Assembly (NCBI GenBank): GCA_905182635.1
Contig: CAJJCM010000032.1
Location: 1 to 43,886, forward strand
DNA: 43,886 nucleotides
Direction: 5' to 3'
Origin: an uncultured Candidatus Poseidoniales archaeon
GTDB lineage: Archaea; Thermoplasmatota; Poseidoniia; Poseidoniales; Poseidoniaceae
Program-made: the position numbers and the translations under genes
The notes under the pieces: model-generated
The model's input: only the letters and a program-made list of their open reading frames with translations
Databases searched by the model: none
What the model was told of the DNA's origin: nothing
Shown here: positions 26,693 to 27,875 of the stretch, one piece after another
How positions within the stretch are numbered: position 1 is the first letter of the stretch
How the letters are laid out: the number at the start of each line of letters is the position of its first letter

Positions 26693-27718
26693 TCAGCGTG
26701 AAGCAAGTGTGAGGTTCTTCCACATTTCTTCTGGAACTTCCATAGCAAGTCGCAGGCCACCCATTGCACCAAGGCGCACAGGGTCGTCGACTACGTGGAC
26801 ATTCACATCGCCCATGTCAGAGAGTCTACGTTCAATCATAGCACCAAGTCCTTTGATACCAGAACCGCCACCTGCAAGAACAATGTTTCGACGGAACTCA
26901 TCGTGGTATTCAGGGTTTGAGCCAGCAATCAATACCTTGACATTCTCAACGATTGGGTCAACGATTGATTCACAAGCACGTTGGATACAATCAGTGATGT
27001 CGAGGTTCATTGCTTTTCCTTCGATTGAAAAGTCAACTAAAACCGGTCCATCAGGTGAAGCATTTCCTACAAAGGAATGCTGTTCCTTCCAGCGGCGAGC
27101 CATATCTTTTGTGATTTGTGCACCACTGTATTTGGATTGAACTTCTTCGATGATTTTTCGGTCGATGAAATCACCAGCATGACCAGTGTGCATTTGATCG
27201 CCGGGTCCTGGGATTGTTCCATAGACACGGCAAAGGTCGGCTGTTCCAGCACCAATATCGATCACTAAGGTATGTTCAATCATGTCCAGTGCATATGCGA
27301 CTGCGAAAGGTTCAGAGATAATCATTGCAGCGTTAACAGAACCTGCTGCTGCATCGAAGATAGCGGTCTTATCGACATAACTTGCTTCAGCTGGAGCGCC
27401 GATTACTGCGACAACACGGTCGTAATCTTCAGGGTCAGAAAGACCGATGAGATGTGTAATGAAGTGAGCGATAAATTCACGGTCTTCTTGGGTATCTTTG
27501 ATTACACCCAATTCCAAAGGACGGAACAGGTTGAGAGCGAGGCGATTCTTGAGGGCTTCTTCACCAAAAAGAACATCTCGCTTGAGGAAATTACGAGCGA
27601 TTGGGTCCTTTGGAGTGCCAATAACTGTTAGTTCTTCTTCTTCGTGGCTATCCGAGGATACCATGACGGAACGGAAGGTTCCTAAATCAATTCCAATATA
27701 CAATATCTCTTCTGCCAT
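26693..27718 (-). CDS. Actin-family ATPase, MamK-like (MreB/ParM superfamily)
   Basis: Phosphate-1 YIGIDLGTFRSVMVSS, phosphate-2 LVIDIGAGTADLCRVYGTIPGPGDQ, adenosine motif NIVLAGGGSGIKGLGAMIERRL; segments AVIGAPAEAS, KEQHSFVG, PEYHDEFRRNIVLAGGGS, GGLRLAMEVPEEMW resemble MamK as remembered. ATG at 27718 (MAEEIL). Confidence 0.85.
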   Translation of the reverse strand: MAEEILYIGIDLGTFRSVMVSSDSHEEEELTVIGTPKDPIARNFLKRDVLFGEEALKNRLALNLFRPLELGVIKDTQEDREFIAHFITHLIGLSDPEDYDRVVAVIGAPAEASYVDKTAIFDAAAGSVNAAMIISEPFAVAYALDMIEHTLVIDIGAGTADLCRVYGTIPGPGDQMHTGHAGDFIDRKIIEEVQSKYSGAQITKDMARRWKEQHSFVGNASPDGPVLVDFSIEGKAMNLDITDCIQRACESIVDPIVENVKVLIAGSNPEYHDEFRRNIVLAGGGSGIKGLGAMIERRLSDMGDVNVHVVDDPVRLGAMGGLRLAMEVPEEMWKNLTLASR

Positions 27719-27827
27719 AGCACTCAACTACCCTTGCCATTGCGAACTACCTTATGAAGAATACCTCGCTTATGGGAGAAGATGACATCTTAGACAAACA
27801 AATAATATTCATTCCCGGTACATGGCG

Positions 27828-27841
27828 GATTCTATAGAATC
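27828..27841. promoter_or_regulatory. Perfect 14-bp palindrome GATTCTATAGAATC upstream of the actin-like gene
   Basis: gattctatagaatc read directly; ~110 bp upstream of the 27718 ATG and downstream of the 27876 stop, with AT-rich aataatattcat between palindrome and ATG. Confidence 0.45.
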
Positions 27842-27875
27842 GTGTATTCGGGAGGCTTTTAATTTCGGAGCGGCT

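Follow-up and report, generated by a model that had tools for sequence, protein, structure and literature searches.

The window analyzed here is a stretch of 43,886 nucleotides from an uncultured Candidatus Poseidoniales archaeon, namely contig C32 of a genome (G000) of 1.33 Mb and 66.5% completeness. The MamK-like gene reported in the initial annotation is real, as a 341-aa open reading frame, named actin gene A in this study, fills the interval given for it. This interval was correct; the strand, which had not been given, is minus. All six protein segments quoted there were found in the translation of A. The further claim that the gene sits alone does not hold, since the conserved gene c2 lies upstream at nearly all of the loci inspected, and related genomes also have another actin paralogue, B. 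Coordinates are collected in Table 1.

Table 1. Features of the actin locus and of the related archaellum-associated gene.
Feature	Position	Strand	Evidence
Actin gene A, MamK-family actin-like ATPase paralogue A, 341 aa	26693-27718	minus	ORF and translation, profile, structure, dN/dS
Conserved partner c2 of A, 338 aa	27876-28892	minus	homologues and adjacency to A
c2-A intergenic spacer, 157 bp (from the ATG used here)	27719-27875	minus	tandem genes on one strand
TerB-like small protein at the archaellum cluster	L076 6852-6977 (G000:C4); L077 18320-18445; L086 12349-12462		

Orthologues of A are found throughout the genus, stop-free and with 87-97% identity, and the pairwise dN/dS between A and its congeners ranges from 0.02 to 0.04 within the genus. 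A is thus not a chance ORF, and it is under strong purifying selection. In the same genome pairs, fewer amino-acid changes were found in A than in the neighboring c2. The nearest named relatives of A in the maximum-likelihood (ML) tree are Poseidonia sp. or Ca. Poseidoniaceae records, and on the strength of these the host is assigned to marine group II (MGIIa). In the single-contig genome G060, A is present in two open pieces covering profile positions 1-148 and 150-331 (L071, G060:C1:1175435-1176441), probably because of an internal stop or frameshift, either real or a sequencing error.

Profile searches, which the initial annotation had proposed, placed MamK first. A scores 359.8 bits (E 1.2e-107) against the NCBIfam MamK model NF040964, and no Poseidoniales protein reaches the curated cut-off of 400 bits of this model, the B copies scoring about 305-349 bits. 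Scores are lower for the BeeR model NF053558 (212.6 bits, cut-off 530), two MreB models (87.2 and 76.8 bits, cut-offs 293 and 365.75; E 9.7e-25), the salactin model NF053533 (67.6 bits, cut-off 400) and the Hsp70-type models (less than 20 bits); the scores of EutJ, PilM and Hsp70 are marginal and local. The top Pfam model is MreB_Mbl with 86 bits, a MamK-specific Pfam model not being among the matches. Among PDB sequences, A matches MamK (252 bits, E 7.4e-74), then BeeR (155) and MreB (54), and neither crenactin nor ParM appears at E<=1.

The nucleotide-binding motifs and the catalytic Glu all align in A, with DLGT (phosphate 1), SEPF (catalytic Glu), DIGAGT (phosphate 2) and GGGSGI (adenosine) intact, so the full actin-fold ATPase motif set described initially is indeed present. 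The DLGT, SEPF, DIGAGT and GGGS motifs are intact in B too, where one sequence has TEPF and keeps the Glu. An AlphaFold2 monomer model of A (pLDDT 90.4, pTM 0.88) adopts the actin fold, which answers the call for a structure prediction. The best Foldseek match of this model in the PDB is the subunit of the double-helical MamK filament, 5ljv_A (TM 0.92, rmsd 1.6 A), compared with TM 0.82 for MreB, and BeeR is second best in structure as in profile. Paralogues A and B can be told apart at the site equivalent to A278 of AMB-1 MamK, which is mostly D (also N or E) in A-type proteins and P, S, T, A or Q in B-type proteins. A278D is the non-polymerising MamK mutant used for crystallisation, according to the PDB title. 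Several bacterial homologues from magnetosome-forming groups also possess D or E here, and the acidic residue was therefore dropped as proof that A cannot polymerise.

The ML tree was constructed from 59 sequences, with the bacterial members taken from the matches listed and thus only partially sampled; crenactin, ParM, Ta0583 and Hsp70 lie outside its sampling, and Bbp is not placed in it by name. A group of MamK, BeeR and archaeal proteins is split from MreB with support of 100/100. The initial annotation had named placement within MreB as a result that would count against it; A falls outside. Within the group, the A and B clades (100/100 each) are archaeal-only and both lie outside the bacterial set. 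BeeR forms a separate clade (100/98). A sister grouping of the A and B clades receives support of only 54/28, and a grouping of A, B and the protein of genome G218 described below is not rejected (p-AU 0.21). By profile, tree and predicted structure, A belongs to the MamK-type bacterial actins and not to MreB, salactin or Hsp70. The initial view, which put A nearer to MamK than to either MreB or crenactin, holds on these grounds, with MamK on top in NCBIfam, PDB sequence and Foldseek searches. A is MamK-like and stands beside bacterial MamK, its membership inside bacterial MamK being not demonstrated.

In G218, which is the sole representative of its order among the genomes analyzed and belongs to a separate, large-genome lineage of Thermoplasmatota, a protein exceeds the MamK cut-off (435.5 bits; L075, G218:C140:37223-38215). 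It groups with the bacterial MamK and MamK-like sequences in the tree (82/93). The genome is listed with 7% contamination, but the contig with this protein looks archaeal, carrying archaeal RpoB, RpoH-like and Kae1 genes. Bacterial contamination was rejected for this contig because its RpoB, the only match of the genome in a search run with that RpoB itself, is 72-73% identical to those of other Thermoplasmatota. MamK-like genes with 328-422 bits were also found in planctomycete, acidobacterial and unclassified bacterial MAGs (L095, L096, L098, L106).

The distribution of the actins was surveyed in 146 genomes of the order with at least 80% completeness, together with the genome of the window. 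The family is present in 88 of the 146 genomes, 81 of which have two or more matches, an approximate number because fragments of genes may be counted as matches. The other seven, with a single match each, are incomplete MAGs, the window genome among them. B is about 47% identical to A. Every sampled genome in the family of the window (f1) has matches, and those in the sister family (f2) are restricted to genera g5, g7, g9 and g21. In the window genome, c3, a neighbor of B, runs off contig C71 and contig C60 starts inside c1, the neighbor on the other side; its B gene most likely falls in the assembly gap between them.

Each actin has fixed neighbors. Wherever c2 was called beside A, the order is c2 then A on the same strand, with gaps of 9-158 bp. 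c2 adjoins A in nearly all A loci with checked flanks; in L061 the contig ends there, and in L064 a small ORF, called spuriously, separates the two. Full-length c2 homologues occur only in genomes with actin genes. The protein comprises an N-terminal CPRC...C..C zinc ribbon, a central beta-rich domain, TerB-like helices at about positions 256-304 and a C-terminal CxxC...CxxC ribbon; only a sub-threshold zinc ribbon is recognized by Pfam. Its structure model is poor (pLDDT 58), and the weak flagellin-like and phage-tail-like matches of this low-confidence model were set aside. A small TerB-like protein encoded beside the archaellum cluster is similar to the C-terminal part of c2 (43-48% over about 40 aa). 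B is located between c3 and c1 in both f1 and f2. c3 is an S8 subtilase with a signal peptide and a C-terminal membrane helix, and c1 is a coiled-coil protein of about 420 aa without any Pfam family above threshold; these three features of c3 and c1 were recognized by visual inspection of the sequences. In their distribution, strong and full-length c3 homologues follow the actins. Two genomes, G039 and G056, appeared to have c3 without B, which is explained by c3 running off contig ends.

In the f2 genomes without actins, the flanking gene order is kept and only the cassettes are gone. The empty A site reads c10-c25-[c2 and A absent]-c14-c8-c16 (L174-L178; the small gene c14 uncalled in two), and the empty B site reads c20-[c3 and B absent]-short c1-c6 (L078-L082, L087-L090; c20 uncalled in L078). 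A short c1 homologue of 150-195 aa stays in place where B is lost, so that c1 either has a function independent of the actin or is a leftover there. The reduced-genome lineages that cleanly lack one cassette cleanly lack the other as well. Of the evidence presented, this joint absence of two unlinked cassettes argues most strongly for a single process served by A and B, although general genome reduction is a partial alternative. Since both families carry the cassettes in conserved places, ancestral presence followed by repeated loss is the simpler history.

With moderate confidence, we regard A as one half of a cytoskeletal system that Ca. Poseidoniales (marine group II) build from two actins and whose filaments position something, probably at the cell envelope. 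The reading draws on the observed family, ATPase motifs, fold, purifying selection and fixed cassettes, and on the joint presence and joint clean loss of the two cassettes. MamK forms dynamic filaments that position magnetosomes with the adaptors MamJ, MamY and CcfM (PMC9512821; PMC5059902). By analogy, both A and B would very probably form dynamic filaments by ATP-dependent polymerisation, and treadmilling would be expected from the family. Each actin would work with its dedicated cassette, A with c2 and B with c3 and c1. The most economical mechanism would be a filament scaffold linked to the membrane, by which an assembly associated with the envelope is positioned or segregated. Subtilase-bearing surface machinery (c3) would be the likely cargo or client, though the cargo is a guess. 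Speculatively, c1 and c2 may be filament adaptors or regulators like MamJ, MamY and CcfM. These roles are guesses because c1 matches no Pfam family above threshold and the c2 model is poor; the coiled-coil CcfM, which links MamY to MamK, offers a precedent (PMC9512821). Further points count against the two-actin reading. Where genomes are streamlined, genes may keep a fixed neighborhood through co-inheritance and without interacting; the short c1 persists where B is lost; and A is acidic at the A278D site, though so are several of its bacterial homologues. We consider rather doubtful a bolder version in which A and B constitute an obligate two-actin system, perhaps as co-polymers or two interacting filaments, that organizes an apparatus for surface proteolysis or adhesion in these archaea via c1 and c2 adaptors. 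Such a system would be a non-magnetic archaeal equivalent of the cytoskeleton that positions magnetosomes, and the lineages with the smallest genomes would have lost it as a single unit.

A function of the actins in cell shape or division, like that of MreB or a division filament, is unlikely. Actin-fold filaments do serve shape and division elsewhere, and the two paralogues resemble MreB/Mbl sets. However, the pair is absent from most MGIIb, although published FISH shows MGIIb cells, like those of MGIIa, as cocci of less than 1 um (PMC6864105). Neither this shape nor division therefore requires the pair. Moreover, wall-synthesis genes were not recognized beside the actins, and the tree excludes MreB.

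Filaments that position or anchor the archaellum would explain the occurrence of both in MGIIa, but we think this improbable as well. The archaellum of MGII is thought to serve adhesion. All Poseidoniaceae-type genera have actins and archaellum together, and the TerB-like segment of c2 resembles the small protein beside the archaellum cluster. Archaella are documented in MGIIa (PMC6461757, PMC6336850). In f2, however, the two are uncoupled, as g7 (G044, G058, G091) carries both actins but no listed archaellin, and g4 and g20 have archaellin without actins. Strict coupling of actins and archaellum was rejected on this comparison.

It is still less probable that A is a non-polymerising actin-fold ATPase that serves in sensing or assembly in the manner of EutJ, PilM or Hsp70. 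The Asp at the position of A278 would agree with this, but homologues from magnetosome-forming bacteria share an acidic residue there, the matches to those three families are only marginal and local, and the A model fits the MamK filament subunit best. A ParM-like role in DNA segregation, known for some actin-like proteins, is very improbable, as the actins are encoded in ordinary chromosomal surroundings whose synteny extends over long ranges, neither a ParR-like small DNA-binding partner nor an iteron array was noticed (without a dedicated search), and ParM is missing from the PDB matches at E<=1. A contaminating bacterial mamK contig in an archaeal MAG, suggested by the fact that MamK is elsewhere known from bacteria, is refuted to near certainty by dozens of MAGs, from two families of archaea, that have orthologues in the same gene order, and by the archaeal-only A and B clades.

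The cargo of the proposed two-actin system is not a known magnetosome, because MamM and MamO, the two magnetosome markers searched, are absent above cut-off from 14 genomes including G000 and G218. On this result, magnetosomes in these archaea are very unlikely. No description of the actins was found in the open-access literature on MamK or actin with marine group II or Poseidoniales, subscription papers and preprints being outside this scope. The main MGII genome papers gave no mention of actin in the parts searched, where one word-start match showed no cytoskeletal context. The novelty of the actin pair is therefore provisional.

Poseidoniaceae-type archaea are abundant in the surface ocean and have sub-micrometre coccoid cells. 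A MamK-type actin is near-universal and strongly conserved among them, almost always in the form of two paralogues whose partners are fixed, and the fixed cassettes supply concrete partner proteins. The one task for which MamK is known is the alignment of magnetosomes. The present results suggest that a role of the MamK family in positioning something other than magnetosomes may be older or more widespread. The G218 protein, above the MamK cut-off and on a contig with archaeal RNA polymerase genes, also bears on the origin of archaeal actins.

MamK-like actins outside magnetotactic bacteria are already known, namely Bbp, BeeR and salactin; to our knowledge, no role has been agreed for these related actins of cells without magnetosomes. 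MamK itself (NF040964; PDB 5ljv, 5jyg, 5ljw) is similar to A in fold and ATPase motifs, with 38% identity between A and AMB-1 MamK over a whole-length alignment and the segments GTxPGPxDQ and KEQxSFVG in common. In contrast, A and B score below the 400-bit cut-off, form their own clades, have other partner genes and an archaeal host, and occur where MamM and MamO were not found. BeeR (PDB 8r2n, Verrucomicrobiota) shares a clade with A against MreB, but it forms its own clade (100/98) and has insertions absent from A, which reaches only 212 bits against the cut-off of 530. Bbp, the MamK-like actin of giant and cable bacteria, was described between MamK and MreB (PMC10580974). It sets a precedent for a MamK-like actin where magnetosomes are lacking, but its hosts are large bacteria and those of A and B are cocci of about 0.7 um; our tree gives it no named place. 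Salactin, of Haloarchaea and other Methanotecta, is likewise an archaeal actin homologue for which its authors found MamK the nearest subfamily (PMC10746226), but A has 67.6 bits to its model (cut-off 400) and 359.8 to that of MamK. MreB shares the actin fold with A (87 bits) and differs by the 100/100 split in the tree and a TM of 0.82 versus 0.92 for MamK.
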